From positions 1 through 44,206 of IMG/VR virus record IMGVR_UViG_3300022750_000023: a stretch of 44,206 bases of DNA; one strand, 5' to 3'. A program made the position numbers and the translations under genes. Positions 1,857-41,600 of the stretch are shown piece after piece. This stretch comes from a virus. Each line of letters opens with the position of its first letter. The stretch's first letter is position 1. The notes beneath the pieces were generated by a model. It was not told the DNA's origin and made no database searches. It saw only the letters and a list, made by a program, of their open reading frames with translations.

Positions 1857-1891
1857 GTTACAAAACTGTATAATCATTAACCTTATATTCG
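1857..1891 (+). promoter_or_regulatory. Phage-class promoter (GTTACAAAACTGTAT-N12-TATATTCG)
   Basis: GTTACAAAACTGTAT (1857-1871), 12 nt, then TATATTCG (1884-1891). The same box-N12-box layout occurs at 12070, 21557, 29232, 38183 and 41566. Inferred start of transcription about 1896, producing the structured RNA below and probably reading on into the recombination genes. Confidence 0.75.
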
Positions 1892-1895
1892 TGTT

Positions 1896-1991
1896 ATAAA
1901 ATCGGTAGCGTCTGACCTTGATACCGACTAAAGAAATTTGAGCCATTCATTGGCGCTTAAGTCAGACGAAGCGCTTTTGTTTGGCTTTTTT
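1896..1991 (+). ncRNA. Predicted structured small RNA with a kissing loop
   Basis: No gene fits 1850-2007. Two hairpins were found by eye: TCGGTA (1902-1907) with TACCGA (1922-1927), and GCGCTT (1953-1958) with AAGCGC (1969-1974). Their loops carry CGTCTGAC (1909-1916) and GTCAGACG (1961-1968), which are perfectly complementary over 8 bases. An outer AGCCA (1941-1945)/TGGCT (1982-1986) pair followed by T6 resembles a terminator. The RNA starts at a phage-class promoter. It could be a free small RNA of about 95 nt or an attenuating leader for the gene at 2008. Confidence 0.6.
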
Positions 1992-2007
1992 ATTAAAACA
2001 TTAAATT

Positions 2008-2247
2008 ATGGAATTACAAGTAAAATCAGCTTCAACATTTTGTGAAGTAACCATTAAATCTGGAAATGCTTTGATTATTGAAGATGTAGCCAATATTAAC
2101 ATTTATAAGGCAGATCAAGATATAGTAGAAAACTTTCTTGATGTGTATTGCCAATTGCAAGCGCATAACAAATTATCAGAAATTGAAATTGTAAAGCACG
2201 TTGCATTTTTCTTAGATGTTAATTTAAAAGACTTAAGCAAACTATAG
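2008..2247 (+). CDS. Hypothetical 79-aa acidic protein
   Basis: Starts MELQVKSASTFCEVTIKSG and looks like a short beta-rich N-terminus followed by helices (NFLDVYCQLQAHNKL). No family recognised. It is the first gene after the structured RNA and lies 3 nt before the Rad52-like gene, so it may be an accessory factor of the recombination module. Confidence 0.7.
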   Translation: MELQVKSASTFCEVTIKSGNALIIEDVANINIYKADQDIVENFLDVYCQLQAHNKLSEIEIVKHVAFFLDVNLKDLSKL

Positions 2248-2250
2248 ATT

Positions 2251-2889
2251 ATGTCAAATCAAGATTTTCTAAAACAAGTAATCTCCAACTTAAAGAAGCC
2301 AATCCGCAGCCAGTGGAGGGTTCAAAGTTATTCAAAAACAAGAGCTAGCGCTACCGTAATGACATATATAGATGCTCGTGATGCAATGGATTTACTAGAT
2401 GAGTACGCTATATATGGATGGAATAGAGAACATTATGAAATAGATGGAAAGGTTTATTGTAGGGTAGGTATTTATATGCCTGATGGATCTATACAGGTAA
2501 GGAGCGATTGTGGTACTGAAAGCAATACCGAAAAAGAAAAGGGACAATCTTCTGATAGCTTTAAAAGGGCTTGCGTTAATTTTGGAATAGGAAGGTTCCT
2601 TTATGATCTACCTATAATGTACATAGATACTGATGTGGTAAAAATAAATGGTAATTACCCTAAGCTTTTAGATAAAAACAAACAGCCAATTAAAAACCTT
2701 AACGATTACTGCAATGATTTAGTTAAGGGCAAAATATCTGTTGATAATAGACCAGAACTTTTGCCAAATACTATTCAATGGAATGAGGCAATTAAATATC
2801 TTTCTGGTGATGGATCATTAGAAAATATTAAAAAGAAATACAAATTAACCGGAACTAACGAAACACTTTTACAACAAGAAATTTTATGA
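2251..2889 (+). CDS. Rad52/22-like single-strand annealing protein
   Basis: The 212-aa protein carries KGQSSDSFKRACVNFGIG followed by RFLYDLP (residues 97-121), the signature segment of Rad52-type phage annealing proteins (Sak group). The preceding MTYIDARDAMDLLDEY and GWNREH region also fits that fold. Such proteins anneal complementary single strands during recombination-dependent replication and repair. A PD-(D/E)XK nuclease gene lies two genes downstream, the usual partner. The stop overlaps the next start (ATGA at 2886-2889). Confidence 0.8.
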   Translation: MSNQDFLKQVISNLKKPIRSQWRVQSYSKTRASATVMTYIDARDAMDLLDEYAIYGWNREHYEIDGKVYCRVGIYMPDGSIQVRSDCGTESNTEKEKGQSSDSFKRACVNFGIGRFLYDLPIMYIDTDVVKINGNYPKLLDKNKQPIKNLNDYCNDLVKGKISVDNRPELLPNTIQWNEAIKYLSGDGSLENIKKKYKLTGTNETLLQQEIL

Positions 2890-3392
2890 AAAAAGAATTA
2901 AACTTATTCTTAGAGCCATTATCAGAAAAGGAGGCTTTGCCAATTGAAAAAAGAACATTATTGAACCTTAAAAAAGGTGAAATACTTGAACTTGCTACTG
3001 AAATACTTCAACAAGTAAATGATGGTATTTTAGATGATGTAGACGTAAAGGTTTTTGCCAAAAAAGGAGAAACATTTTTTAAGGCACTTAACGAAGGGCT
3101 GAGCGGTAAGGTAGAACTGCCACAAGATAAGGACTACAAAAAGCATGGTTGTACAATGAGAATGCAAGATACTGGAGTTAGGTACGATTATTCTGTTTGT
3201 GGACACCCTGTAATTGATGAACTAACCGAATTTATCAACAGCCGTAAACCTATTGTAGAAAAGGTTCAAAAGGAATTGAAATCTTTAAAAACGGAAACGG
3301 AAATAACGGACGAAGAAACAGGCGAAACATTCACCGTTAAACCTCCTGTAAAAACCGCTGGACGCTCGGTAATCATAACATTTGATAAGTAA
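2886..3392 (+). CDS. Recombination-operon protein of unknown function (168 aa)
   Basis: Lies between the annealing protein and the nuclease and is coupled to both (ATGA at 2886; TAATG at 3390-3394). The N-terminal half is acidic and helical. A middle segment, QDTGVRYDYSVCGHP (about residues 98-112), recalls small proteins found in recombination operons of other phages, without a known activity. The C-terminal part is rich in Thr/Glu/Lys. An accessory factor for the SSAP-nuclease pair is a guess from position. Confidence 0.7.
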   Translation: MKKELNLFLEPLSEKEALPIEKRTLLNLKKGEILELATEILQQVNDGILDDVDVKVFAKKGETFFKALNEGLSGKVELPQDKDYKKHGCTMRMQDTGVRYDYSVCGHPVIDELTEFINSRKPIVEKVQKELKSLKTETEITDEETGETFTVKPPVKTAGRSVIITFDK

Positions 3393-4030
3393 TGCTTTAC
3401 GATTATTCTTTCTATCCTACGCTATTAGATAGCTATTTTAGATACAAGAAAAGTGAAGATGAACTTTCATTCATTCAATTGTTCGACAAGATAAACCAAG
3501 TTGCACAAGAAGCAGATGAAGCGAGATTAAAAGGTATTGCTTTTGAAAAATTGATAAATGAAATGATTACTGTTGGGGATGTAAACTGTATAGATGGTAA
3601 TTTTATATCAAATGACCATTCATTCAATTCTGATTTAGTTTTAAGGATTTACGAGAAACTTAAACGATGTTCAGAAATTCAGTCACATCAACAAAAAGTA
3701 ATAGATACTCCAAAAGGTATGGTTAAAATTTACGGTGTTTTCGATTATAAGTTTCCCCAAATGACAGCTGATCTTAAAACTACTGCTAGCTATCGGTATG
3801 GTAAATACGAAGATAATATGCAACACAAGTTTATTTCATTGCTGACAGATGACAAGGAGTTCAATTATATTGCTACCGACTTTGAATATCTATTCTTTGA
3901 AAATTATTGGTTAACAGATAAGGTACGTAAACAGGCAATTGAAGATATTTGTGAGTTTATTGATTTCATTAACCACTTTAAAAAATACATTACTAATACT
4001 AAAATATTCGGCAATGGAAATTTGGGTTAA
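3392..4030 (+). CDS. PD-(D/E)XK (RecB/Cas4-like) exonuclease
   Basis: The 212-aa protein shows the ordered motifs of this superfamily: GIAFEKL (E52), IYGVFDYKFP (D118), ADLKTT (D127-x-K129) and a following Q144 in DNMQHKF. Those residues normally bind metal and cleave DNA. It is probably the 5'-3' exonuclease that prepares single strands for the Rad52-like protein, a role inferred from context. The next gene overlaps its end by 17 nt. Confidence 0.8.
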   Translation: MLYDYSFYPTLLDSYFRYKKSEDELSFIQLFDKINQVAQEADEARLKGIAFEKLINEMITVGDVNCIDGNFISNDHSFNSDLVLRIYEKLKRCSEIQSHQQKVIDTPKGMVKIYGVFDYKFPQMTADLKTTASYRYGKYEDNMQHKFISLLTDDKEFNYIATDFEYLFFENYWLTDKVRKQAIEDICEFIDFINHFKKYITNTKIFGNGNLG

Positions 4031-4424
4031 GAATACATTTAGGGGTTTAGTCCCAATGTACGATACAGACTTGGATAATAAAAAGAAATTGAAAATAGAT
4101 CAGGAATATCTTGTTAAAATTTCAATGCCCAGAAATATAAAGTTCCATCGGAAAATGTTTGCTCTTTATAATCTAGTATTTCAAAATCAAGAACGATATA
4201 GGGTATTAGATGACCTTAGAAGGGATATAACTATTGAAGCTGGATTTTATAGGGAAAGAACTAATATCTATGGAGAGATAATTAAAGAAGCTGAGAGCAT
4301 TAGTTTTGCCAATATGGATGAAGATGTTTTCTCACAATTGTATAATAGATCCTTGGATGTAATAGTGAAGTACTTTCATTTTGATAGACAGTCAATGATT
4401 GATGAAATAGAACAATATTTTTAA
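4014..4424 (+). CDS. DUF1367-family phage protein
   Basis: I start it at ATG 4014 (MEIWVKNTFRGLVP) because an earlier in-frame ATG (3939) lies deep inside the nuclease gene. The 136-aa protein has KLKIDQEYLVKISMPRNIKFHRKMFAL in pieces typical of DUF1367 (residues about 25-50) and the later ESISFANMDEDVFSQLYN segment. DUF1367 genes sit near recombination or replication genes in many phages, and their activity is not known to me. Confidence 0.85.
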   Translation: MEIWVKNTFRGLVPMYDTDLDNKKKLKIDQEYLVKISMPRNIKFHRKMFALYNLVFQNQERYRVLDDLRRDITIEAGFYRERTNIYGEIIKEAESISFANMDEDVFSQLYNRSLDVIVKYFHFDRQSMIDEIEQYF

Positions 4425-4428
4425 AGAA

Positions 4429-4689
4429 ATGAGAAAAGTATCAAAAAAAATGGCTTCAAATCTAAGGGAATATAAAAAGCTTAGGGACAAATTCATTATT
4501 GAAAATCCAAATTGTGAAAGATGCGGTAATGAGGCGACCGATGTACATCATAAAAAAGGGCGAATTGGCAATGATTTAATTGATGTAAGCAACTTTCTAT
4601 CCGTTTGCCGTAATTGTCATCACTGGATAGAAAATAATGTATCAGAGGCAAAGAAATTAGGTTATTCACTAAATAGATTAGACAAATGA
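4429..4689 (+). CDS. HNH-type nuclease, small
   Basis: The 86-aa protein has C29-x2-C32, VHHKKGR (H40, H41), N48 and C60-x2-C63 with HH following, the arrangement of zinc-binding HNH endonucleases. In phages such proteins act in recombination, packaging or as homing enzymes. Its position in the recombination operon fits a Holliday-junction or NinG-like role, but the sequence does not decide this. The stop overlaps the next ATG. Confidence 0.8.
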   Translation: MRKVSKKMASNLREYKKLRDKFIIENPNCERCGNEATDVHHKKGRIGNDLIDVSNFLSVCRNCHHWIENNVSEAKKLGYSLNRLDK

Positions 4690-4895
4690 CAACAATAGAA
4701 AAAGCAAAGGAGTTTATTAGATTAAATCCGATACTTAAAGGTTTCGTAACCGACCGTTTTGATGAACAGATTGATGTTGAAAAAACACTTATTGATCACT
4801 CCAAATTCACTCTTCAACAGTTTATCGACTTCATTGAGATCAACCAGGATAAATCTGTAAAGGGTATTATTCAAGAACTAAAGGCTAAGTTATGA
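4686..4895 (+). CDS. Hypothetical 69-aa helical protein
   Basis: Starts MTTIEKAKEFIRLNPILK; mostly charged helices. No family recognised. It shares ATGA overlaps with both neighbours (4686-4689 and 4892-4895), so translation is likely coupled along this stretch. Confidence 0.65.
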   Translation: MTTIEKAKEFIRLNPILKGFVTDRFDEQIDVEKTLIDHSKFTLQQFIDFIEINQDKSVKGIIQELKAKL

Positions 4896-4969
4896 TTGAG
4901 ATAACCAACGAAGATAACATGGATAAGCATGTAAAGATGATAATTGAATATTTGGATGCAATGGTATGA
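4892..4969 (+). CDS. 25-aa micro-protein
   Basis: The frame reads MIEITNEDNMDKHVKMII and ends EYLDAMV. It overlaps the upstream stop and the downstream start by ATGA on both sides (4892-4895, 4966-4969). The double coupling is the reason to believe it is translated. It may simply carry ribosomes to the next gene. Confidence 0.45.
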   Translation: MIEITNEDNMDKHVKMIIEYLDAMV

Positions 4970-5262
4970 GTTTAAAACCTGGTGAAATAGTATACTGTAA
5001 TATTACAGCAAGTGGTAAAAAATTATACAAAGCAGAAAAGGTAACATTATCCGCTCCTTATAGTGGATATGAGCCTAAACTTTATATATCTAATGTAGAG
5101 CATTCTTTAATACTAAAGAAAATGAGTTGTATTGAAAAAACAGTAAATATAACACATTTAGAAATATTACATAGGTGCGGATTTAAGACAAACAGTAAAG
5201 AATTTACTGAAGTCAAAGCAAGTGATGAAAAACGTAATAAAATAACAGGGGCTTACGAATAA
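4966..5262 (+). CDS. Hypothetical 98-aa basic protein
   Basis: Starts MSLKPGEIVYCNITASGKKL. Lys-rich, apparently a beta-rich N-terminal half. No known motif. Its TAATG junction with the methyltransferase at 5262 suggests a functional or at least translational link. Confidence 0.65.
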   Translation: MSLKPGEIVYCNITASGKKLYKAEKVTLSAPYSGYEPKLYISNVEHSLILKKMSCIEKTVNITHLEILHRCGFKTNSKEFTEVKASDEKRNKITGAYE

Positions 5263-6575: not shown

Positions 6576-6926
6576 ATGAGGAATGCAGTTAGAAAAAAAT
6601 ATGAAAGGTGTCTAATCAATAAGGTTAGCAAAAAACAATCGGAATACATAAAATTAAATTCAAAGTTTCATACTGATGATGAGATTGCAATAAAGCTAAG
6701 GATGAAAAAAAATCTTGTCATTAGCTATCGTCATAAAATATTGGGTCTGTTTAAGAATAGATCGATTAGGCTTAGGTCGGGGTGTATTATCTCAGATATA
6801 AATCAACTCAACCAAGAATTATTTGCATTGAAATCATTTAATTACCAAGGATCAATGTTTGAAAGCTATAAATCAAGAATTTCATTCATTGAAGAACAAA
6901 TAAAATTGCATCATGGAATCAACTAA
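6576..6926 (+). CDS. Possible HTH regulator, hypothetical (116 aa)
   Basis: Very basic N-terminus (MRNAVRKKYERCLINK) followed by HTDDEIAIKLRMKKNLVISYRH, which has the spacing of a helix-turn-helix with the second helix about residues 45-55. The C-terminal third is a likely coiled coil. It could be an activator of the phage promoter class, but nothing in the sequence proves it. Overlaps the next gene by 14 nt. Confidence 0.6.
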   Translation: MRNAVRKKYERCLINKVSKKQSEYIKLNSKFHTDDEIAIKLRMKKNLVISYRHKILGLFKNRSIRLRSGCIISDINQLNQELFALKSFNYQGSMFESYKSRISFIEEQIKLHHGIN

Positions 6927-10200: not shown

Positions 10201-10375
10201 TTTAGAAAAAATAAAAGATTTAAAATGTAAATTTAGAATGTATGGAGATGTAGAAAAATTATGTATAAAATGCGGTTACATCATATGGTTTAATGGGAAA
10301 GATACAGATTTAACAGTTTTGAATAATATGGTTAATTCAGGATATCCCATACCTAATTGCAACATAAAATCATGA
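10181..10375 (+). CDS. Hypothetical 64-aa protein with CxxC
   Basis: Starts MKKERIDLEKIKDLKCKF and contains CIKCGYIIWF, a half zinc knuckle with further Cys at C16 and C60. Stop overlaps the next ATG (10372-10375). Function unknown. Confidence 0.6.
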   Translation: MKKERIDLEKIKDLKCKFRMYGDVEKLCIKCGYIIWFNGKDTDLTVLNNMVNSGYPIPNCNIKS

Positions 10376-11696: not shown

Positions 11697-11942
11697 ATGT
11701 TACAAGAAAAAGAGCTATTAGAAATTTTCCCTTTAGTATTTTCATCTTCTCATTCAATTGGATTCAAAAGGGATGAAATAAAATCATTACTATTTGATCC
11801 ATCATACACATTTTTAGAGATACCAAAATTAATGTGGTTAGATTGTATTTACAATTATTTTGGCGAAAATGGGATAGATAAATCTATACTTAATATTAAT
11901 TCTGTTTTAATTTCTTGGTATGAAAGACAAAATGCGAGGTAG
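11697..11942 (+). CDS. Hypothetical 81-aa protein
   Basis: Starts MLQEKELLEIFPLVFSSSHS; aromatic and helical, no motif recognised. Follows the 71-aa gene by 3 nt and overlaps the next start by 11 nt. Confidence 0.65.
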   Translation: MLQEKELLEIFPLVFSSSHSIGFKRDEIKSLLFDPSYTFLEIPKLMWLDCIYNYFGENGIDKSILNINSVLISWYERQNAR

Positions 11943-12099
11943 GCCAAAAAAAGAGCAAACAAAGAAGCATTTCAATCTACGCCTTTCCGATGACGTAATA
12001 TCCTTTATCAAATCAAACCCTAACCAAGTAGCCTATATCGAGTCTCTTGTTAGGTCAGATAACAACATCGTTACAAAAACAAAGGAGGGGAATGCTTAA
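11932..12099 (+). CDS. Ribbon-helix-helix-like protein, 55 aa
   Basis: MRGRPKKEQTKKHFNLRLSD, then DVISFIKSNPNQVAYIESLV: a basic arm, a FNLRL strand and two helices, as in Arc/CopG-type regulators with a GRPKK start. A candidate DNA-binding regulator. Its last codons contain the upstream box of the promoter at 12070, and its stop codon is part of the TAAATTTG box. Confidence 0.7.
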   Translation: MRGRPKKEQTKKHFNLRLSDDVISFIKSNPNQVAYIESLVRSDNNIVTKTKEGNA

Positions 12100-12104
12100 A
12101 TTTG
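12070..12104 (+). promoter_or_regulatory. Phage-class promoter for the tRNA-like gene
   Basis: GTTACAAAAACAAAG (12070-12084), 12 nt, TAAATTTG (12097-12104). Spacing is identical to the other members. The tRNA-like 5' end (12109) is 5 nt after the last G, where transcription should start, so the RNA may need no 5' trimming. Confidence 0.75.
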
Positions 12105-12108
12105 GAAT

Positions 12109-12198
12109 GTTGATGTGGCGGAATTGGTAGACGCTAACGACTGAGATTGTGACTACAGCGGGCACAGCATTTTACAGGTTCGAATCCTGTCATCAACA
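12109..12198 (+). tRNA. Class II tRNA-like RNA, Leu(GAG)-like, with irregular anticodon arm
   Basis: Acceptor stem GTTGATG (12109-12115)/CATCAAC (12191-12197) and T arm ACAGG-TTCGAAT-CCTGT are perfect; D arm GCG-GAATTGGTAGA-CGC fits; length 90 nt is that of Leu/Ser tRNAs. CTGAGAT (12141-12147) reads as a Leu loop with anticodon GAG, but a 5-bp stem cannot be formed around it. ACGA (12137-12140)/TTGT (12147-12150) would leave a 6-nt loop. CCA is not encoded. Either a diverged tRNA or a tRNA mimic. Confidence 0.65.
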
Positions 12199-12216
12199 CA
12201 AACTAACCTAACCGAT

Positions 12217-21545: not shown

Positions 21546-21556
21546 GTTATAAAGAT

Positions 21557-21591
21557 GTTACAAAACGGTATCGATGTAATGGTTAGATTTG
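21557..21591 (+). promoter_or_regulatory. Phage-class promoter (GTTACAAAACGGTAT-N12-TAGATTTG)
   Basis: GTTACAAAACGGTAT (21557-21571), 12 nt, TAGATTTG (21584-21591). ATG 21596 starts 5 nt after the last G, so this transcript may be leaderless or nearly so. Confidence 0.8.
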
Positions 21592-21595: not shown

Positions 21596-21760
21596 ATGTT
21601 AATTTATATATTATTATCAGTAACCAATTATAATGGATTTAAGGTTACAAGAATAGAAAGTGTATTTGATAGCTATGAAAAGGCTAAATTTAAAGCTGAC
21701 TGTATGTCTGAAAATATTGATAATATGGAATTAGAGATTATGGAGGATCTGTTAAGATGA
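21596..21760 (+). CDS. Hypothetical 54-aa protein
   Basis: MLIYILLSVTNYNGFKVTRI then acidic helices ending MELEIMEDLLR. First gene of a cluster of small genes inserted between tube and tail genes and served by its own promoter. Function unknown. ATGA overlap at 21757. Confidence 0.6.
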   Translation: MLIYILLSVTNYNGFKVTRIESVFDSYEKAKFKADCMSENIDNMELEIMEDLLR

Positions 21761-23787: not shown

Positions 23788-26743
23788 TCAAAGTATAGAT
23801 GAAATTGTAAGCCCTAAGGCCATTCAAGGGCTTATAGATTTAGAACAAAGATTATTAACTGCAGATAAGGCTATGGCAACCGCCATTGTTAATGCTAAAA
23901 AATATACTGAGGTTTTGGCTTCTGCAAAAGGTTTTGGCGCTGTTGAAAAAGCCGCAGCAAATGCGGAACTTTATCAGCAGAAAGTTATAAAGGCTACGGC
24001 TCAGGCTCAAGCGGCAGAAGAGAGATTATCAGCAGCAAGGCAAAAGGCACAGGATAAAATAGATGCAATAGAAGCCAAGAGGGCGGCTAATGAAGCTAAA
24101 CAAGTTGAACGTGATAATGAAAAACTAAAAAGAATAGAGCAGATTGAAGCTAGGGAAACAGAAAGATTACAAAAACAACAATTAGCAGAACAACAGGAAA
24201 TAAGCTCATCACAATTAATAACTGCTCAACAGGCAAATGAAGCTACTGCAAGAGGATTAGCAAACAGAGAGAGAGAGGTAACTGCAGATACGGCTAAACA
24301 AACAGCATTAGAAATAGAACAAGAAAGACAAGCTATAATCGCAAATACTAGGGAGCTAAGAAATAATGCTAGAGAACAAAATGCGGCTAAAGGTAGCTTA
24401 GAGCAAAGAAGATTAGCCTTAATTCGTTTAAGAAACACATTTGACAATCTTAATGAAGCCGAAAGAAATTCACCTTTTGGACAAAGGCTTATTAGGGTAA
24501 TTCCTCAACTTAATGAACAGGTATTACAACTAGAAAGGTCTACAGGAAGGGCGCAAAGAAATGTCGGCAACTATGGGGGTGCTTTTGGTAGAATACAGCA
24601 AGGTGCAGAGCGTGCTTTTGGTGTGCTAAAAAATATAGCTAACTTTTTGCCCGGCTTAGGTCTTGCCGGACTTATAGGATTATTAGTTGATCCTATTGTT
24701 GATGCTATTTCTAAAATGGACATCTTCAAAACAAAAATATCAGAAACAGCAGAGGTAACTGCATTAGCTTCGTCTGAATACAAAAAGGCTACATCAGATG
24801 TTACAGCCCTTGGAACGTCAATAAGTGAATTTCAGAATGGCACTATTTCCAAAAAGGAATTGGTAGATAGATATAATTCAAGTATTGGTGAAACAGTAGG
24901 TAAATTACAGACTGCTACAGAGGTAGAAGATTTCTACAATAAAAAATCAGCTGCATTTGTTCAGGCTACCCTATTAAGGGCTGAAGCTCAGGCGGCATTA
25001 AATGTAGCCACTGATAAAAGTTCAGAAGCCCTAACTAAACAGATTGAAGGACCAGGAGTAGTTGAATATATCAAAGGTATTGGACTTGCCATCGTGGAGG
25101 GTAAAGCATTAAATTTAGAGTCGGTAAAACTAAATGCAAACTTAGCAAACTTGACAGGTGTAGGGGAATTGAAGCAGGAAGCTAGAGAGGCGGGAAAGCT
25201 TTATGACGATTTACAAAAGAGAGCTGATATTTATGCTAAAAGAAATGGGCTTGATTTCAGTAAGCATACTAATGGTGTTGATCCAGCTATCCAAGCTAGA
25301 AAGAATGCGGCTGCTTTGGTTCAGGTTCAGATCAACACCGTAAAAGAACAGCAATCTCTTTATAAAGAACAATTAGATAATGAGAATTTTAGCCTTGATA
25401 CTAGGCTTACCGCTCAACAAAGATTTGAAGAAAGATCTATAAGAATTTCAATGCTGGAAGCTGAAAAATCAAAAGCCGAAAAGAAAAACAGTTATGAGGA
25501 AATATTAGCCATTGAGAGTAAACAACAAAGCGATCAGAATACGATTATATCAGAAGGATTTAAGCAAAGAAATAGCATTATACTATTCTATTCAAGTCAA
25601 GAAGAAAAACAAAGGATTTATGAAAATCAAAAAGTTATTACTGATATTCAAAAGCAACGGGATGATGAATTAGCCAATTTAATTTTAGCTTATCAGAATA
25701 AAGGTGATTACAGTTTAAAAGCTCAGGAAAAATTAGAAGCCGATCGGCTTGCGCTTATAAACAAATATAATATAAAGGAAGTATATGAGCAGATTGCACA
25801 AGCTCAAAAACTTATTGATATAAGAAAAGCCCTTGGTTATGATACCGCCAAAGAGGAAGCAGAACTATCAGCTTTGAATGTAAGGAGTAAAGAGCTTGAG
25901 GTTAATGCTTATAAAAAATTAGGTAAAGAAATATTAAACGATGAAAAGGAAAGATTTTTAAGATTAAAGGATATTGGGCAGGAATTATTTAATTTCAGCA
26001 GATCTATTGTAAGTGGTATTTATGATAAGAGGGTTGATGCGTTAAATAAAGAAGCTGATATAATTTCTAAAAATACTGAGATACAAATAGACAATGTAAA
26101 CAATAGTACTCTTTCAGAGCAAGAAAAGGCCGATAAAATAGCAGTAATCCAGGCTAATGCGGCAAATAAACAATTGCAGATTGAGGAAAGAGTGCGACAA
26201 GAGAAAAGAAGAGCGGCCATAGCTGATAAGGCGTTTGCAATAAGTCAAGCTATTATAAATGGTGCTTTAGCGCAAACCAAAGTTGCTGCTCAAACAGGGG
26301 TTGCTACTTTTGTTTTCAGTCCTCTTGTTGCGGCACTTACCGCTATTCAAATAGCCTCTATAATCGCCCAACCAATACCCAAATTTGAAAAAGGCGGTAC
26401 TGTTAAAAAAGATGGTATTATCATGACAGGTGAAAAGGGACACGAATTAAGGATCAATCCTGATGGATCTAAAGAATTGACCGATAACAAGGCTAACCTA
26501 TCATTTGCGAAAGCGGGTACCAGGATCATTTCTAATCCTGAAACTGTTAGAATGATGGCTAAGCCTGATAAAATCGATTACGAGGGCAAATCATGGGATG
26601 TAGCGCCATTGATAGCTGAAAGCAAACGATCAACCAAGGAATTGAAATCAACAGTTAAGAAACTGGTTAGCAAGAATAGGCATGCTGAAAATACTGCTAA
26701 CATCAGCAAAACACAGGCATGGATTAAAAGAAACTTTTCGTAA
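23777..26743 (+). CDS. Tape measure protein
   Basis: 988 aa, the longest gene. Long Ala/Glu/Lys/Gln-rich coiled-coil stretches (about 60-260 and 560-840), a hydrophobic segment near 285-310 (FLPGLGLAGLIGLLVDPIV), and a C-terminal hydrophobic region followed by KFEKGGTVKKDGIIMTGEKG, common in tape measures of this group. By the usual ~0.15 nm per residue the tail would be about 150 nm. It sets tail length and helps DNA entry. Confidence 0.9.
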   Translation: MANSQSIDEIVSPKAIQGLIDLEQRLLTADKAMATAIVNAKKYTEVLASAKGFGAVEKAAANAELYQQKVIKATAQAQAAEERLSAARQKAQDKIDAIEAKRAANEAKQVERDNEKLKRIEQIEARETERLQKQQLAEQQEISSSQLITAQQANEATARGLANREREVTADTAKQTALEIEQERQAIIANTRELRNNAREQNAAKGSLEQRRLALIRLRNTFDNLNEAERNSPFGQRLIRVIPQLNEQVLQLERSTGRAQRNVGNYGGAFGRIQQGAERAFGVLKNIANFLPGLGLAGLIGLLVDPIVDAISKMDIFKTKISETAEVTALASSEYKKATSDVTALGTSISEFQNGTISKKELVDRYNSSIGETVGKLQTATEVEDFYNKKSAAFVQATLLRAEAQAALNVATDKSSEALTKQIEGPGVVEYIKGIGLAIVEGKALNLESVKLNANLANLTGVGELKQEAREAGKLYDDLQKRADIYAKRNGLDFSKHTNGVDPAIQARKNAAALVQVQINTVKEQQSLYKEQLDNENFSLDTRLTAQQRFEERSIRISMLEAEKSKAEKKNSYEEILAIESKQQSDQNTIISEGFKQRNSIILFYSSQEEKQRIYENQKVITDIQKQRDDELANLILAYQNKGDYSLKAQEKLEADRLALINKYNIKEVYEQIAQAQKLIDIRKALGYDTAKEEAELSALNVRSKELEVNAYKKLGKEILNDEKERFLRLKDIGQELFNFSRSIVSGIYDKRVDALNKEADIISKNTEIQIDNVNNSTLSEQEKADKIAVIQANAANKQLQIEERVRQEKRRAAIADKAFAISQAIINGALAQTKVAAQTGVATFVFSPLVAALTAIQIASIIAQPIPKFEKGGTVKKDGIIMTGEKGHELRINPDGSKELTDNKANLSFAKAGTRIISNPETVRMMAKPDKIDYEGKSWDVAPLIAESKRSTKELKSTVKKLVSKNRHAENTANISKTQAWIKRNFS

Positions 26744-26750
26744 CTAAATT

Positions 26751-26786
26751 GTTGCATACAGGCAATTGTTATTACTTGTATATTTG
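26751..26786 (+). promoter_or_regulatory. Possible promoter of the RNA locus (TATATTTG)
   Basis: TATATTTG at 26779-26786 is a perfect -7 box. Upstream, GTTGCATACAGGCAA at 26751 resembles the phage-class box, but with 13 nt instead of 12 between them. Likely drives the RNAs up to the terminator at 27204. Confidence 0.5.
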
Positions 26787-26865: not shown

Positions 26866-26890
26866 TGGCGAGAGCGGTTAATTTAGATGA

Positions 26891-26940
26891 TGGGCGGTTA
26901 TAGATATGCAATAGTTGTCATTCCCGCCCACTTCTTTAAA
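26891..26940 (+). ncRNA. Structured RNA element upstream of the tRNA
   Basis: TGGGCGG (26891-26897)/CCGCCCA (26934-26940) is a perfect 7-bp stem. Its interior can fold again (ATGCAA with TTGTCAT, one bulge). No T-tract, no reading frame. It ends 9 nt before the tRNA 5' end and may guide processing. Confidence 0.4.
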
Positions 26941-26949
26941 ATCTTAAAT

Positions 26950-27022
26950 GTTCCTTAAGGCAAAGTGGTTGCGCCGTTGGTTTTTCGAACCAAAGAAGCG
27001 GGTTCGATCCCCGCAGGGAATA
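26950..27022 (+). tRNA. tRNA-Glu (anticodon TTC)
   Basis: 73 nt with acceptor GTTCCTT/AGGGAAT (two G-T pairs), D arm GGC/GCC with an 11-nt loop containing GTGG, anticodon arm TTGGT-TTTTCGA-ACCAA (anticodon TTC at 34-36, tRNA-Glu), 4-nt variable loop, T arm GCGGG-TTCGATC-CCCGC and discriminator A at 27022. CCA is not encoded, as in Bacteroidota. Serves GAA codons, which are abundant in this A/T-rich genome. Confidence 0.85.
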
Positions 27023-27042
27023 CAACAATTTAGAGCGAGAAA

Positions 27043-27156
27043 GTCGTGAAGCAATCGATTAGCGAAGAACGACAACAGAACAAGTTAATTATTTGCCCGT
27101 TTGTTCGGGGCGTATGACCTCATACACAAAATAATTGAACATGAGCCGAGGTCGGC
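27043..27156 (+). ncRNA. Predicted RNA with a three-way junction
   Basis: GTCGT (27043-27047)/ACGAC (27069-27073). Then a 10-bp stem TTAATTATTT (27085-27094)/AAATAATTGA (27129-27138) encloses two hairpins, GCCC/GGGC (27095-27098, 27108-27111) and GTATG-ACCT-CATAC (27112-27125). A last hairpin GCCG-AGGT-CGGC lies at 27145-27156. No reading frame competes. Ends in the terminator at 27173-27204. Function unknown. Confidence 0.5.
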
Positions 27157-27172
27157 AGTGAAGATTGATTTA

Positions 27173-27204
27173 AAACCACATTATTAATTTAGTGTGGTTT
27201 TTTT
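27173..27204 (+). terminator. Rho-independent terminator of the RNA locus
   Basis: AAACCACA (27173-27180)/TGTGGTTT (27193-27200) plus T-tract to 27204. The next promoter box begins 2 nt later. Confidence 0.85.
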
Positions 27205-27217: not shown

Positions 27218-29224
27218 ATGGGCGCAATGGGCAATAAATTCAGATACTATCTAACCTATCAAGGTATTCGACAAGAAATAGTATTTGCACCCCAATCATG
27301 GGACACTGAAACAATAGGGCAATATAAGCGTGATTTAGGCGGTTACTTTGGACTAATCAGATCATTAAGCTTACCATTGTCATTTGTTAAAGATGCTTAC
27401 CAAAGGCTTAGAAATGCTTTCCTTAACGATGGAATAGAAGCAGGTGTAAGACTTGAAGTTGATGAGAGGCAAAACGATTGGTCATACCTTAACATATTTT
27501 ATGGAGACTTAGACTTTTCACAGTTCAAACCCAATGGCATAACCTACGAAGTCCCATTGATGGAGGCGGGAATTGGTAAGCAGGTAAAGGCTAAGGAAGG
27601 TATTAAGTACGAATACCTATTGGAAGGTGATGATGTGGTAAACATTGTTCTTCCTGGAATACAGTTTGAGGAAAAGGCAATATTTGTACCGAACTATGTT
27701 GATACGACGTCATTAAATTCTGCAAAAAGGTTTACCATTGGAATAAACCTAACAAATAGTGGTTTTAAGTCTGGATTTGTTATATCACAAAGTACATTGC
27801 AAAGAAATGCAGCTGATACTGATGATTTCACGGGTGACTTTTTTGTTAGGGGTAATAGGGTTTCTGGAGTGCTAATAAATATTAAGGGCAACTTAAAGGG
27901 GTATATTAGACATAACCCGATAGAAAATGAACTATCAGAGCTCTACCTGATGAATACTGTTACTAAGGAAAGGGTTTATACGTTCGTTTCAAAAGATGGC
28001 ACTGGATCTATAGAAAGCTTTGATGTAGATTTTGATTTTAATTATACACTGCCATTTTCTCAAGGACTGTGCATTTATTCAAGAGTAAATAACGGAGGTG
28101 GCAACGTTAGCTATGTCGCCACAAATGAAGGTGAAATTAATGTTAGTTACGCTACTGTTTCGGATCCATCAAATTGCAAGGGAATAAAAGCGTATGACCT
28201 TTTCAAAAGGATTTCACAAAGGATATTGCCTGATGTACCCATCAATTCGGTGCTTATCAACTCGCAATGGAAAAACCTGATATTTACATGTGGAACAGCC
28301 ATAAGGGAGCTTGACAAACCAAAGATAAAGATAACGTTTAAGGAGTTCTTCGATACTTTCAATGCAATTACTGATGCTGCTTTTGGGCTTGATAACGGAG
28401 TTGCTAGACTAGAGGAAGGTTATTACTTCGCTAGAAACACGATGATAATGGATATCGGCAATGTAAATTCATGTGAAGCCTCATTCTGTGAAGAACTTGC
28501 CGGCAACCTTGTAAAGATAGGCTATAATGATGGTAATACCGAAGATGAAAATGGACTAGAAGAATACAACAGCGGTCAAGAATATGAACTACCATTGAGC
28601 AGGGTTCAAAAGGAGATACCTTGGATATCCCCAACTAGAGCAGATCAGTACGGAATTGAAAGACTTAGGGTATTGTTCAATATAACCAAGCAATCAACTT
28701 CTGATACCTCAAGCGATAACGATACGTTTATGATCGATTGCTATCAGGATGGGGTAAACTATAAACCTATACTAGGCTCAACATACGATAGCATAACAGG
28801 GCTTTCATTCCCCTTATCAGCTTATAACCTAAGGTTGACACCAAAGCAGAATTTACTTAGGCATTCGGGCTATTTGGCTTCTATATTGGATAGGCAAAAC
28901 GGAAGGACAATCGAGTTTGGAAGCGGAACTAAGAATACTGATTTGGTAACGATTAAAGATGGGGTTAGGGTTGCAGAAGGAGAAGGAGTCGCCGTTTCAT
29001 CATTGGATGGAAAATACTTCCAACCATATATCTTCAATTTAAAAGGTAAAATTCCAGTTAATGCAATGCGGTTAATGGATAGTACACCTTTCGGCTATGT
29101 AAGGTTTAACTTTAACGATATCGTTGCGGAGGGATTTATAATTATGGTTTCTCAATCACTTGGTGATAACTCAGAAAGGGAATTACAACTTTTAGCAACG
29201 GCAACAAGTAATATTCCAGTGTAG
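27218..29224 (+). CDS. Tail hub/baseplate protein
   Basis: 668 aa from ATG 27218 (a GTG at 27194 lies in the terminator). Position after the tape measure gene and features such as SWDTETIGQYKRDLGGYFG and LKGKIPVNAMRLMDSTPF fit the large distal tail/baseplate proteins of Bacteroidota siphophages. Domain boundaries cannot be drawn by eye. Likely links tail tip and receptor-binding proteins. Confidence 0.65.
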   Translation: MGAMGNKFRYYLTYQGIRQEIVFAPQSWDTETIGQYKRDLGGYFGLIRSLSLPLSFVKDAYQRLRNAFLNDGIEAGVRLEVDERQNDWSYLNIFYGDLDFSQFKPNGITYEVPLMEAGIGKQVKAKEGIKYEYLLEGDDVVNIVLPGIQFEEKAIFVPNYVDTTSLNSAKRFTIGINLTNSGFKSGFVISQSTLQRNAADTDDFTGDFFVRGNRVSGVLINIKGNLKGYIRHNPIENELSELYLMNTVTKERVYTFVSKDGTGSIESFDVDFDFNYTLPFSQGLCIYSRVNNGGGNVSYVATNEGEINVSYATVSDPSNCKGIKAYDLFKRISQRILPDVPINSVLINSQWKNLIFTCGTAIRELDKPKIKITFKEFFDTFNAITDAAFGLDNGVARLEEGYYFARNTMIMDIGNVNSCEASFCEELAGNLVKIGYNDGNTEDENGLEEYNSGQEYELPLSRVQKEIPWISPTRADQYGIERLRVLFNITKQSTSDTSSDNDTFMIDCYQDGVNYKPILGSTYDSITGLSFPLSAYNLRLTPKQNLLRHSGYLASILDRQNGRTIEFGSGTKNTDLVTIKDGVRVAEGEGVAVSSLDGKYFQPYIFNLKGKIPVNAMRLMDSTPFGYVRFNFNDIVAEGFIIMVSQSLGDNSERELQLLATATSNIPV

Positions 29225-29231
29225 CACACTT

Positions 29232-29266
29232 GTTACATTTTTGTGTTTGTTTTTGATATATATTGC
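29232..29266 (+). promoter_or_regulatory. Phage-class promoter of cassette A
   Basis: GTTACATTTTTGTGT (29232-29246), 12 nt, TATATTGC (29259-29266). The upstream box is diverged after GTTACA, but spacing is exact. Starts a self-contained unit in the tail region. Confidence 0.65.
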
Positions 29267-29289: not shown

Positions 29290-29679
29290 ATGGCAATACC
29301 CTACATTCATTGCTTGGCATCGGCTAAGCGTTTCGGTGGAATACCAGAAGATTACTTAGACATTCACGAATTAATGGACAGTTCAAAAGCAGCGTTTCCT
29401 AATAACGGTCACCGTGTTTTAACACATAATTCATGGTTTGTGGTGACTATTCTACCTAAAGTATTTGGACACCAAAGGAAAAACTCAGACGGTAAAACTT
29501 ATAATGTTAAAGACATTGGGGAATACCACATCTTAGAAGATTTTAGAATGAGGTTTATCCCTAGCGTTCAAGATTACCTAGAGCATTTAGACATACAGAC
29601 TTGGATGAATAATGGCGGTGGAGTGCCTAACCGATTAAGGAACAAATCAAAAGAAACAATTGAAAAATTAAACGATTAA
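29290..29679 (+). CDS. DUF6915-like protein (cassette A)
   Basis: 129 aa from ATG 29290 (the TTG at 29263 is inside the promoter). IPYIHCLASAKRFGGIPEDY, LDIHELMDSSKAAFPNNGHR, and a DIGEYHILEDFRMRFIP segment match what I recall of DUF6915, with conserved His residues and a GG-x2-EDY motif. Function unknown. The leader ATTAAAAATAACGAAAA is nearly the same as at the AAA+ gene (38235). It is inserted between two tail genes and is read from its own promoter. Confidence 0.7.
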   Translation: MAIPYIHCLASAKRFGGIPEDYLDIHELMDSSKAAFPNNGHRVLTHNSWFVVTILPKVFGHQRKNSDGKTYNVKDIGEYHILEDFRMRFIPSVQDYLEHLDIQTWMNNGGGVPNRLRNKSKETIEKLND

Positions 29680-37861: not shown

Positions 37862-37884
37862 TTTTTCATAATTTAGTTTAGTTT

Positions 37885-37917: not shown

Positions 37918-37924
37918 ATCTTTA
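37917..37924 (+). promoter_or_regulatory. Promoter box TATCTTTA of a small RNA
   Basis: Same box directly after a terminator T-tract as at 27206 and 30287. Downstream there is no plus-strand gene until 38251, so it would make a short RNA. Confidence 0.45.
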
Positions 37925-37929
37925 CCTAA

Positions 37930-38011: not shown

Positions 38012-38107
38012 GTATTCACCCACAAAAGAAAAGAAAGAAGAAAACCGAACCAAAACAACTGTAAGAAAATAAAGGAAAAGAAGAAAAATACCCCTACAAT
38101 TTCTCAT
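37988..38107 (-). CDS. Possible 39-aa hydrophobic peptide
   Basis: Minus-strand frame MRNCRGIFLLFLYFLTVVLV followed by a Phe/Ser stretch and a basic end (EYKKALVKN). One membrane helix at about 7-20. A consensus minus-strand promoter precedes it with a 30-nt leader. The frame lies in a pyrimidine-rich strand that yields Phe/Leu/Ser by chance, so caution is needed. Convergent with the small RNA. Confidence 0.35.
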   Translation of the reverse strand: MRNCRGIFLLFLYFLTVVLVRFSSFFSFVGEYKKALVKN

Positions 38108-38140
38108 AGAGGCATTAGTAATTTCGATTATGTAGCATTA

Positions 38141-38171
38141 CAAATATAGATAAAATCTATTGAATTGCAAG
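38141..38171 (-). promoter_or_regulatory. Minus-strand promoter (CTTG-N19-TATATTTG)
   Basis: On the minus strand CTTG (38168-38171), 19 nt, TATATTTG (38141-38148). Well-formed. It is divergent from the phage-class promoter at 38183 and needs a product: the 39-aa peptide or an antisense RNA. Confidence 0.65.
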
Positions 38172-38182
38172 TTAACAACATC

Positions 38183-38217
38183 GTTACAAAACTGTATTGA
38201 TATAAATACTATTATTG
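38183..38217 (+). promoter_or_regulatory. Phage-class promoter of cassette B
   Basis: GTTACAAAACTGTAT (38183-38197), 12 nt, TATTATTG (38210-38217). The first box is identical to that at 1857. Leader of about 30 nt to ATG 38251. Confidence 0.75.
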
Positions 38218-38250
38218 TAAACCCAATGTCGGGTATTAAAAATAGCGAAA

Positions 38251-39150
38251 ATGGAAAGTTTAAGCGCAAATGACGCAGTAAAATTATTAATTCACTTTAC
38301 AAATGAAAATAACAAAGGTGAATTTTATAGGGTTGCGAACGAATATCTTCAATCCCTTTCTTTCAATGGCAGAAATTGGGGTCAAATAAAGTCGGTGTTA
38401 AACCGTAGACCTATGGAAATGTTGACATTAGACCAACTCCCCAAAAATATTAAAGCATTAATAAGCACTCAAGAACAATCTGAAGAATTCGTTTATCTAA
38501 ACCCATCAATAGAATCAATGATTGATGATATTATTTTTGAATGGAAAAATAAAGACGTTTACAAAAGCCATAATTTAGGAATTAGAAATAAAATACTTTT
38601 ACACGGTTTAACTGGCAACGGAAAAACAACAATAGCAAGAAACATAGCAAAGGTTTCTAAGATGCCTTTTGTTGAGGTTCGTTCTGAAATGATAATTGAT
38701 AGCAAATTAGGAAGTACGGGGCAAAATATTTCATCACTTTTAAACTCAATAAAAGAGCCATGTATTTTATTTTGGGATGAAATAGACACAATTGGTAAAA
38801 AACGATCATCTGTTTCTGATAATTCTGCATCACATGAAAATGATAGAATGGTAAACACTATTTTAGTATCATTGGATAAGATGGCTAATGATGTAATTTT
38901 TATTGGAGCTACAAATCGTTTAGATGTTCTAGACGATGCCTTTTTAAGAAGATTCGATATAAAATTTGAGGTTGGAAATCCAACTCACAAAGAAAAAGAA
39001 ATGTTTTTAGATGGATTGTTTAAATACTACAATGTGCCAAAGTCAGAAATAAACCTGACGTCCTTGGTTAACTTTTCAGAAATAAAAGACAAGGTTATTC
39101 AAATATGTAGAAATTACGTTATAAATTTAATAAAAAAGAATATCCACTAA
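38251..39150 (+). CDS. AAA+ ATPase (cassette B)
   Basis: 299 aa. N-terminal ~100 residues are specific and helical; then Walker A GLTGNGKT (119-126), Walker B ILFWDEID (172-179), sensor 1 GATN (219-222) and arginine finger RRFD (233-236), as in FtsH/Vps4-type AAA domains. Usually a hexameric remodeller of proteins. No protease domain and no obvious partner. Own promoter, 5' leader like the DUF6915 gene, 3' stem-loop and terminator: a moron-like unit inside the lysis region. Confidence 0.85.
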   Translation: MESLSANDAVKLLIHFTNENNKGEFYRVANEYLQSLSFNGRNWGQIKSVLNRRPMEMLTLDQLPKNIKALISTQEQSEEFVYLNPSIESMIDDIIFEWKNKDVYKSHNLGIRNKILLHGLTGNGKTTIARNIAKVSKMPFVEVRSEMIIDSKLGSTGQNISSLLNSIKEPCILFWDEIDTIGKKRSSVSDNSASHENDRMVNTILVSLDKMANDVIFIGATNRLDVLDDAFLRRFDIKFEVGNPTHKEKEMFLDGLFKYYNVPKSEINLTSLVNFSEIKDKVIQICRNYVINLIKKNIH

Positions 39151-39170
39151 GTTTGTCGCTATTCTTAGCG
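39145..39170 (+). promoter_or_regulatory. Conserved 3' stem-loop, copy B
   Basis: CACTAAG (39145-39151), loop TTTGTCGCTATT, CTTAGCG (39164-39170). It overlaps the AAA+ stop codon. One A-C mismatch, otherwise paired. See copy A at 30214. Confidence 0.7.
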
Positions 39171-39175
39171 GTATT

Positions 39176-39206
39176 AGCCATGTTATTAACTTAGCATGGC
39201 TTTTTT
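39176..39206 (+). terminator. Rho-independent terminator of cassette B
   Basis: AGCCATG (39176-39182)/CATGGCT (39195-39201), followed by T's to 39206. Loop TTATTAACTTAG. Confidence 0.9.
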
Positions 39207-39227
39207 ATGTCACATCCATTTTACACA

Positions 39228-39257
39228 CCAGCTTTGATTTAATACGTAAATTGCTGG
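39228..39257 (+). promoter_or_regulatory. Hairpin in the leader of the 39275 gene
   Basis: CCAGC (39228-39232)/GCTGG (39253-39257), with an inner ATTTA/TAAAT. No T-tract. Possibly a leader structure or operator. Confidence 0.35.
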
Positions 39258-39274
39258 AAACTAATTAAAAGATT

Positions 39275-39643
39275 ATGATTGACGGAAACAAACTAATGCT
39301 AGGTAACTTGTTCAAGGAAAAGTTTACAGGCCAAACAATCGAGGTGATAGGAATTGAGGGTAATAAAATTACTTTCAGTGGTACGTTTAAAGACAAATGG
39401 CAAGCTAAACCAATATTATTGACTGAGGAAATACTTTTGAAGTTTGGATTTAATAAAACATCAATGTATAAAAACACCTACAATTATCACATAAAAACAT
39501 TAAATGGCTTTCATGATATTTTTATAGATATATCTGCAAATGTATTGCTAATTGGAGCAATTGAATTAGGTTCATTTTTTTATCTACATCAGTTACAAAA
39601 CCTACTAACATCCCTAGGCCACCACCTCACAATCACAATCTAA
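39275..39643 (+). CDS. Conserved Bacteroidota-phage protein, hypothetical
   Basis: 122 aa. LMLGNLFKEKFTGQTIEVIG, PILLTEEILLKFGFNKTSMY and FFYLHQLQNLLTSLGHHL form a pattern common in phages and mobile elements of this phylum (LTEEIL-LKFGF, then H-x-LQNL). No activity known to me. Confidence 0.75.
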   Translation: MIDGNKLMLGNLFKEKFTGQTIEVIGIEGNKITFSGTFKDKWQAKPILLTEEILLKFGFNKTSMYKNTYNYHIKTLNGFHDIFIDISANVLLIGAIELGSFFYLHQLQNLLTSLGHHLTITI

Positions 39644-39648
39644 ATAAT

Positions 39649-40203
39649 ATGAAACTAGAGCAATGGAAAGACATTATTAATTATGAAGGTTTTTATAAAA
39701 TATCGAACTTTGGAAATGTAAAGTCAGTTGATAGATACGTTAATTCTAAAAATGGATCTAAATCTCTTAAAATAGGTAGAATAAAAAAAGCTGGCGTAAC
39801 TAACGGATATAGGGTTGTTTTGCTGTCTAAATTCAATAAAGAGAAAGGATTTGGTGTACATAGATTAGTTGCGATGCATTTTATTGAAAACATAAAAAAC
39901 AAACCAGAGGTAAACCATAAAGATGGGAATAGATTAAATAATCATGTAGACAATTTAGAGTGGTGTACTTCATCTGAAAATTCAAAACATAGTTATGAGA
40001 ATAAGTTGCAAATATCTAGAAAAGGAAGTGACCATCATAATGCTAAAATTTCAGAAAAAGATGTTTTAGAAATATTAAAAATATCTAGCTCTGGATTCTG
40101 TAAAAAGGAATTGGCAAAAAGGTATAATTTAAGTTACGGGTCAATAGTAAGAATATCAAATAGATCAACATGGAAGCACGTTGACATTAACACAATTAAA
40201 TAA
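39649..40203 (+). CDS. NUMOD4-HNH homing endonuclease
   Basis: 184 aa. EQWKDIINYEGFYKISNFGN (5-24) is NUMOD4. GVHRLVAMHFIEN and VNHKDGNRLNNHVDNLEWCT (88-107) are the HNH core with H71, H90 and N98-type residues. The C-terminal HTH (SGFCKKELAKRYNLSYGSIV) binds DNA. A free-standing selfish gene. Adjacent genes (39275, 40206) appear intact. Confidence 0.9.
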   Translation: MKLEQWKDIINYEGFYKISNFGNVKSVDRYVNSKNGSKSLKIGRIKKAGVTNGYRVVLLSKFNKEKGFGVHRLVAMHFIENIKNKPEVNHKDGNRLNNHVDNLEWCTSSENSKHSYENKLQISRKGSDHHNAKISEKDVLEILKISSSGFCKKELAKRYNLSYGSIVRISNRSTWKHVDINTIK

Positions 40204-40205
40204 GC

Positions 40206-40394
40206 ATGAAGCTACTAACTAAATTATTTTATGCCTTTATAATAGTATTTATAATTGGTTACTTGCTTTTCTCATTCATACTGCTTTCTTTTAATCCATA
40301 TGATTGGGGTTTTGGTGGTAGGCAGGTTTATAGTTTATTATGCGTTGCAACTTTTGGTGCGTTATCTGTAATTATTGGATTTGATCATAAATAA
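40206..40394 (+). CDS. Small membrane protein, two segments
   Basis: 62 aa. Hydrophobic 8-28 (FYAFIIVFIIGYLLFSFILL) and about 41-58 (VYSLLCVATFGALSVIIGF). Basic N-terminus. Possibly a lysis or exclusion protein. 1 nt before the methyltransferase. Confidence 0.55.
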   Translation: MKLLTKLFYAFIIVFIIGYLLFSFILLSFNPYDWGFGGRQVYSLLCVATFGALSVIIGFDHK

Positions 40395-40395
40395 T

Positions 40396-40959
40396 ATGAA
40401 ATATAATATCATTTATGCAGATCCTCCTTGGAAATACTCCAAGGGTGTGCATCAAGAAACTTTCCCTAAAAGAAAGCAAACTAGAACAGAAAGGATTTTG
40501 CCATATCAAACTATGGCACTAAATGATATGAAGCAATTAAATGTCAATGATTTAGCTGATGATGATTGTGCTTTATTCATGTGGGTTACCGATAGTCATT
40601 TAAAACAGGGTTTAGAATTAATTGAGGCTTGGGGTTTCAAATATTCTACTATTGCATTTATATGGCACAAGGTTACTAACAAAGGCAATACATGTGCAAC
40701 AGTAGGGGCATGGACAATGAAGAATTGTGAAATATGTCTTTTGGCATTTAAAGGAAAAATGTTGAAGCATAAAAAATGTAACAACATTTTTCAATTGATA
40801 AATGCAGAAAGAACTATAAACTCAAAGAAACCACATGAAGCAAGGATAAGGATAGAAATGATCTTTCCTAACCTTTCAAAAATAGAGCTATTTGCAAGGG
40901 ATAAAACTGAAGGATGGGATGTATTTGGTGATCAAGTAGAAAATTCAATAATTATTTAA
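40396..40959 (+). CDS. MT-A70-like N6-adenine methyltransferase
   Basis: 187 aa from ATG 40396. YADPPWKYS (DPPW at 9-12) is the MT-A70/Ime4 signature. PYQTMALNDMKQL, ALFMWVTDSHLKQGLELIEAWGF in parts, KPHEARIRIEMIFPN and IELFARDKTEGWDVFGDQ follow the family order. Probably modifies adenines in phage DNA and may protect it in combination with the methyltransferase at 5262. Confidence 0.9.
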   Translation: MKYNIIYADPPWKYSKGVHQETFPKRKQTRTERILPYQTMALNDMKQLNVNDLADDDCALFMWVTDSHLKQGLELIEAWGFKYSTIAFIWHKVTNKGNTCATVGAWTMKNCEICLLAFKGKMLKHKKCNNIFQLINAERTINSKKPHEARIRIEMIFPNLSKIELFARDKTEGWDVFGDQVENSIII

Positions 40960-40970
40960 CTAACTTTAAT

Positions 40971-41129
40971 ATGAAAAAGAAATTACTAACATCATTCATC
41001 ATTAACAGTGTTATATTCCTTGTCGCTGCGGCTTTTATTTGGCGCATAGCATACAGTGAAAACAGGGCTAGAACGGTGGATGAATTTGAAAACCACAGCA
41101 AAATAATTAACAATGGATATAACAATTAA
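40971..41129 (+). CDS. 52-aa membrane-anchored protein, spanin-like candidate
   Basis: MKKKLLTSFIINSVIFLVAA, one membrane helix (8-26) followed by a polar tail (SENRARTVDEFENHS). It lies just upstream of the endolysin, where inner spanin subunits can lie, but it is short and no lipoprotein partner was seen. Confidence 0.5.
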   Translation: MKKKLLTSFIINSVIFLVAAAFIWRIAYSENRARTVDEFENHSKIINNGYNN

Positions 41130-41158
41130 CGGCTGCTTAGGTGGCACAGGAATGTAAA

Positions 41159-41575
41159 ATGGCAGTATTAGGAAAGACATCATTACAAAACCTTAAAGGA
41201 GTTCATCCTAATTTGGTTAAGGTTATTACAGAGGCTATTAAAGATACGCCTATAGATTTCACCGTAACTAGTGGGGTTAGAACTACTGCAGAGCAAAAGG
41301 CTTTATATGCGCAAGGTAGGACGTCTAAGGGGTCAATAGTAACAAATGCTGATGGAGTTAAGAATAAATCTAACCACCAAGCTAAAAACGACGGCTATGG
41401 ACACGCTATTGATCTATGTCCTTATGTTAATGGAAAGTTGGATTGGAATACTACATCTAACTTTAAAATCATATCGGCTCACATTATTGCAACAGCAAAA
41501 TGTTTAGGTATTAAAGTTACATGGGGCGGTAATTTTAAAAGCATAGTAGATTTACCACATTTTGAGTTATCATAA
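41159..41575 (+). CDS. Endolysin: M15 peptidase (L-Ala-D-Glu type)
   Basis: 138 aa from ATG 41159. VTSGVRTTAEQKALYAQGR (36-54), SNHQ...GHAIDL with zinc ligands H73 and D85, and LPHFEL with H134: the VanY/M15 metallopeptidase pattern of T5-like endolysins. Cuts cell-wall peptide at the end of infection. No signal peptide, so it depends on a holin. An in-frame start at 41141 is less likely. Confidence 0.9.
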   Translation: MAVLGKTSLQNLKGVHPNLVKVITEAIKDTPIDFTVTSGVRTTAEQKALYAQGRTSKGSIVTNADGVKNKSNHQAKNDGYGHAIDLCPYVNGKLDWNTTSNFKIISAHIIATAKCLGIKVTWGGNFKSIVDLPHFELS

Positions 41576-41600
41576 AAACTAACTTATTTCGTTAACTTTG
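41566..41600 (+). promoter_or_regulatory. Phage-class promoter before the holin candidate
   Basis: GTTATCATAAAAACT (41566-41580), 12 nt, TAACTTTG (41593-41600). The first box is diverged, but the 27-nt distance is exact. It lies across the end of the endolysin gene and would give the holin extra late transcription. Confidence 0.55.

Follow-up and report, generated by a model that had tools for sequence, protein, structure and literature searches.

A dyad operator at fixed distance from a TAnnTTTG box characterizes a putative promoter class of phage accessory genes

Results

The window analysed, an IMG/VR virus record of 44,206 bases, carries recognizable terminase, head, tape-measure and tail genes. 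About 130 bases are repeated at its two ends (1-130 and 44077-44206), and it is therefore probably a complete circularized phage genome, the overlapping ends presumably reflecting a circular or terminally redundant molecule. Its terminase has relatives in Bacteroides phages, which together with the TAnnTTTG boxes described below point to a Bacteroidetes host.

Along the plus strand lie several copies of a two-box element, each named here by the first base of its GTTA box, followed by accessory genes, tRNAs or small RNAs (Table 1). An earlier note had described these as a six-member promoter class (1857, 12070, 21557, 29232, 38183 and 41566), and all six strings, with 27 nt between box starts, are indeed present in the window sequence. 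As judged from sequence the class is real, though its membership and anatomy differ from that description.

Table 1. Putative class promoters and downstream features in the window (scores from the full position matrix unless indicated)
Feature	Coordinates	Strand	Elements	Predicted start	Score or remark
Class promoter 1 (site 1857)	1846..1891	+	half-sites CTAGC/GTTAC 1846-1861; AAAACTGTAT; -7 box TATATTCG 1884-1891	1896	21.4 bits
Predicted small structured RNA	1896..1992	+	behind promoter 1857; terminator-like hairpin and T run at end		fold z-score -3.3
Class promoter 2 (site 12070)	12059..12104	+	dyad ATAACAACATCGTTAC 12059-12074; -7 box TAAATTTG 12097-12104		29.3 bits
tRNA gene	12109..12199	+			ARAGORN; Rfam tRNA 42.3 bits
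Class promoter 3 (site 21557)	21546..21591	+	GTTATAAAGATGTTAC, weak upstream half; AAAACGGTAT; -7 box TAGATTTG 21584-21591		38.8 bits
54-aa ORF	21596..21760	+	first gene of accessory cassette, between structural genes	ATG at +1	predicted leaderless
Additional class promoter (site 26751)	26740..26786	+	dyad GTAACTAAATTGTTGC 26740-26755; -7 box TATATTTG 26779-26786		31.4 bits at gap +1 (operator plus -7 matrix)
RNA element and tRNA-Glu	26870..27023	+	behind 26751; GAGAGCGGTTAATTTAGA and hairpin from 26870; tRNA-Glu 26950-27023		
Weak class promoter (site 29232)	29221..29266	+	dyad GTAGCACACTTGTTAC 29221-29236; -7 box TATATTGC 29259-29266		11.0 bits
Class promoter 4 (site 38183)	38172..38217	+	dyad TTAACAACATCGTTAC 38172-38187; AAAACTGTAT; -7 box TATTATTG 38210-38217		30.5 bits
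AAA ATPase gene	38251..39150	+	downstream of promoter 38183		Pfam AAA, E 7.6e-29
Probable weak site 39220	39209..39254	+	GTCACATCCATTTTAC; -7 box TAAATTGC 39247-39254		17.9 bits

The window sites were scored with a position matrix built from 15 sites, all from other phages, the window being left out. In 6 Mb of random sequence the matches to this matrix fell from 0.24 per window at 11 bits to 0.03 per window at 15 bits, and none scored 17.9 bits or above. Sites 1857, 12070, 21557 and 38183, at 21 to 39 bits, exceed anything found in random sequence and are therefore considered solid. The pattern GTTACAAAA-N18-TA occurs 4 times in the window against 0.06 times per dinucleotide shuffle, and its stricter form GTTACAAAA-N18-TAnnTTnG 3 times against 0.003. 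Site 29232 is retained as a weaker member, its good operator, GTAGCACACTTGTTAC with TATATTGC, yielding 19.2 bits on a matrix of operator plus -7 box versus 11.0 on the full matrix. Site 41566 (41566..41600, plus strand), in the holin region, has the TAACTTTG box alone, scores -27.7 bits and was rejected as a member. Two sites had been missed, 26751 and probably 39220. Matrix matches at 10201, 32042 and 41182 were at chance level and were also rejected.

Alignment of 21 sites revealed a second half-site 11 nt upstream of GTTAC, so that the previously described 15-nt box beginning GTTA is part of a larger element. Its GTTAC is the inner of two half-sites in the inverted repeat GTAAC-N6-GTTAC, whose centre lies at about -42.5. 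This upstream half-site was absent from every query with which the training sites were gathered. Allowing at most one mismatch, the repeat occurs 62 times at N6 versus 10-24 times at other spacings between 0 and 15. A third, weaker half-site, GTAT, lies another 11 nt downstream, and half-sites thus recur at about one helical turn. Site 21557, among the best scorers, has a weak upstream half-site (GTTAT).

The distance between operator and -7 box is fixed as well. Across 20 related phage contigs (424 kb), GTTACAAAA is followed by TAnnTTTG, with 0-1 mismatch allowed in the -7 box, 22 times at a gap of 18 and never at gaps of 12-17 or 19-24, and the operator plus -7 matrix gives 33 matches of at least 15 bits at gap 0 versus 3-15 at other gaps. 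The spacer of site 26751 equals the class spacer plus one base; sites with gap +1 are, taken together, no more frequent than expected, but the high scorers among them include this site and one in G015 (27036, 30.1 bits; contigs are cited by our own labels). Spacer sequence varies from site to site. The string AAAAC is conserved in most sites and missing at 26751, G014 33175 and G009 14385.

In Flavobacterium sigma-A promoters the -7 box, TAnnTTTG in SM1-3 and TAnnTTGY in SM5, occupies -12 to -5, as in F. psychrophilum (PMC9723704). The class keeps this -7 box of Bacteroidetes primary-sigma promoters, at the position given by that study. It does not have the -33 TTTG or TTG box about 23 nt upstream; CAAA within GTTACAAAAC stands there instead, and none of the class members listed has a TTG 21-25 nt upstream of the -7 box. 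The layout is thus distinct from that of the host, as had been proposed, and ordinary promoters with TTTG at -33 occur in the same window (7152, 13307).

Transcription is predicted to start about 4-5 nt downstream of the -7 box, which would be the A of the ATG at site 21557 and the first base of the tRNA at site 12070. In eight of these phages, 36 ORFs have their ATG 3-5 nt after a TAnnTTTG box and 2 have it at 0-2 nt, suggesting that leaderless starts are a general habit of these phages. They are not specific to the class, since they also occur at the ordinary promoters with a -33 box in these phages. Among mapped F. psychrophilum mRNAs just 5.5% are leaderless (PMC9723704).

The earlier proposal that the sites precede RNAs and accessory cassettes holds, its holin-region case excepted. 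Cargo consists of accessory genes, tRNAs and small RNAs; it differs from phage to phage, in some cases where the promoter itself is identical. The predicted RNA at 1896 matched no Rfam family above gathering score. Promoter 12070, which overlaps the 3' end of ORF 11920-12099, is followed by a tRNA and small ORFs; the tRNA is probably a tRNA-Leu(GAG) with a 7-nt loop, the loop having been read by eye, and its anticodon call by ARAGORN is odd (ga). Promoter 21557 directly follows a terminator-like hairpin and is predicted to drive small ORFs amid structural genes. Site 29232 lies upstream of an ORF with its ATG at 29290, and site 39220 precedes ORF 39275-39643, related to the M..ELRIGN accessory family. 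Small proteins of this family (in the window, 39275-39643; elsewhere, cargo of L004-L012) are found behind most promoter copies in several phages.

The RNA element GAGAGCGnTTAATTTAGA, with a terminator-like hairpin behind it, is conserved between the window (26870-26940) and in L162, L184 and, on the minus strand, L133, L006 and L183. It lies mostly behind a TAnnTTTG-type promoter, just ahead of a tRNA in four of the six cases, and had no match in Rfam. In the related phage contig L006, tRNA and element adjoin a permuted tmRNA (7993-7773, minus strand; Rfam RF04321, 52.4 bits, gathering score 47) that was not called by ARAGORN. After the tRNA-Glu of the window, positions 27024-27193 are non-coding, with a terminator at the end, possible structure and a sub-threshold match to an L10 leader.

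Contigs from sample 3300020045 and from samples related to it carry similar or identical boxes, with the same spacing, ahead of small accessory-gene starts. Since most carrier contigs were gathered by motif search, the strongest support comes from sites beyond query selection, namely 1857, 12070 and 38183 in the window, G002 6080, G001 6376, G005 14407, G010 2467, three sites in G030 (27986, 37067 and 37631) and those of G014 and G015, two contigs found through terminase similarity that bear dyad sites. A nearly identical 35-mer is present in at least eight copies, which may represent recent transfers rather than independent sites. G014, G009 and G003 have a promoter at the same position, after their homologue of gene 11920, with differing cargo, a tRNA in the window and an ORF in G014 and G009. 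At the position of 21557, G009 also has a dyad promoter, and G014 and G015 have a dyad upstream of a terminator plus a separate leaderless -7 box.

In IMG/VR at large, the broad pattern GTTACAAAAC-N17-TAnnTTTG occurred in 73 contigs versus 19 at a +1 gap, raw counts that were discarded as evidence because most of the excess stems from redundant coding families; the control gap gave no matches of the accessory-gene promoter kind. A dyad-pattern search returned 56 contigs, mostly chance coding matches, and matches in genome contigs of Calothrix, Cyclobacteriaceae and Nomurabacteria were rejected as not promoter-like. Among 395 Bacteroidota genomes the leaderless form of the motif has one match, without upstream half-site, and a search of 99 for the dyad form found no match; the true host may be unsampled. 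This near-absence implies that the element is not a general host promoter. A literature search for the motif found no report of it.

None of the candidate regulators previously suggested (61, 6576, 6913, 7163 and 11932) is common to all carriers, and no universal candidate emerged from a shared-gene comparison or from searches with phmmer, with Pfam and for HTH/sigma families. Candidate 61 is ribbon-helix-helix-like, 7163 has a weak HTH_3 match, and 6576 and 6913 have no confident family assignment. Candidate 11932, which is gene 11920, is ribbon-helix-helix-like with a weak BrnA-like match; in four phages its 3' end overlaps the promoter, which is evidence of position but not of function. The Myb/GcrA-like HTH protein at 6576 has possible relatives, of unproven similarity, in G001, G002, G005, G011 and G029, and none was found in G009, G014, G015 or G030. 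The putative activator may be encoded by the phages, in diverged form, or by the host. In 13 carrier records no sigma domain matched over the Pfam cut-off; weak, short, sub-threshold matches to a sigma region-4-like HTH occur in two of the 13 and in none of the near-full-length records, making a phage sigma factor an unlikely reader of the class.

Discussion

The motif with its fixed spacing, the dyad, the placement with respect to genes and the recurrence in phages are read directly from the sequence; we infer protein binding, activation, start sites and timing. The favoured reading, held at a probability of about 0.68, is that the sites form a family of activator-dependent (class II) promoters, served by a dyad-binding protein and host RNA polymerase with its primary sigma. 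A dimeric DNA-binding protein would occupy the inverted repeat and recruit host polymerase, whose primary Bacteroidetes sigma would read TAnnTTTG at -12 to -5; as the usual -33 TTTG is absent, the bound protein would stand in for that contact. Transcripts would often begin with the A of an ATG, making the mRNA leaderless, or with the first base of a tRNA. In several phages of the same samples this one arrangement would drive an interchangeable cargo of accessory genes, tRNAs and small RNAs. Class II activation is favoured because of the symmetric operator near -42.5, as such promoters need, the missing -33 box and the invariant phase.

The earlier note had left open whether the factor recognizing the GTTACA box was an activator or an alternative sigma. 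That some such factor reads the box is supported, and the dyad half-sites, the fixed phase and the retained sigma-A -7 box favour the activator. Were GTTACAAAAC (-39 to -30) instead read as a -35 element by an alternative sigma, host ECF-type or phage-encoded, its exact position, invariant spacing and mostly conserved AAAAC would be accounted for; yet the -7 box is that of the primary sigma and not the CGT-type ECF box of Flavobacterium (PMC9723704), a symmetric half-site lies upstream, some members do without AAAAC, and neither the sigma search among 13 carriers nor the single leaderless match in 395 Bacteroidota genomes agrees with it, so that this explanation appears quite improbable.

The dyad could also be the operator of a CI-like repressor that silences accessory genes until a signal arrives, which we regard as unlikely. 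The dyad does adjoin the core promoter, some dyads in G030 overlap the -7 region or adjoin an ATG (26707, 28019), and the SOS repressors of Bacteroidetes are CI-like proteins with short palindromes as their binding sites (PMC8565304). However, a core promoter missing its -33 TTTG looks too weak to need repression, repressors do not require an invariant phase to the -7 box, and the published SOS (LexA-like) operator, CTAA-N5-TTAG (PMC8565304), differs from GTAAC-N6-GTTAC in half-site and spacing. Finally, several contigs have the near-identical 35-mer with different genes ahead of it and behind it, as would suit a junction for recombination or cassette exchange that spread by copying from phage to phage and needs no special regulator; since spacers in the window, G002, G005, G010 and G030 are unrelated, yet the two boxes persist at an unchanged distance, there is very little to be expected of this account as the main one.

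Compared with Flavobacterium sigma-A promoters (PMC9723704), the class thus has a similar -7 box and, in place of the -33 TTTG, a dyad operator.

At the lambda PRM promoter bound by CI, and at CRP-type class II promoters, a dimer operator at about -42 stands beside a host -10 box with a weak or absent -35. The class resembles these in its putative dimer operator, host -7 box and weak or absent -33 element; it differs in operator sequence, in its Bacteroidetes sigma, in an activator that is putative and in its many dispersed accessory targets. Lambda CII binds TTGC-N6-TTGC direct repeats, and MotA acts with AsiA on the -30 box of T4 middle promoters. The class would share with both a phage activator site that replaces the -35 contact at fixed distance from a host -10 box, but it has an inverted repeat, and no CII or MotA homologue was recognized here. 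By position and cargo the cassettes also appear to qualify as phage morons, being accessory genes with their own predicted promoter, variable among related phages and lying between phage operons, after a terminator at 21557. They differ from these in having one promoter design across several phages, leaderless genes and tRNA or small RNA cargo.

Same-sample phages with little common sequence may use one promoter language, in which a single activator, possibly host-encoded, would switch on portable promoter-plus-gene cassettes in all of them, so that a cassette would function in whichever phage it moved into; this extension is offered tentatively. Little is known of transcription control in Bacteroidetes phages, and a grammar of operator and -7 box common to several of them gives predicted start sites and a testable missing activator. 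Within these phage genomes it can also guide the search for accessory genes, tRNAs and small RNAs, and it might be of use as a compact leaderless expression cassette for Bacteroidetes.
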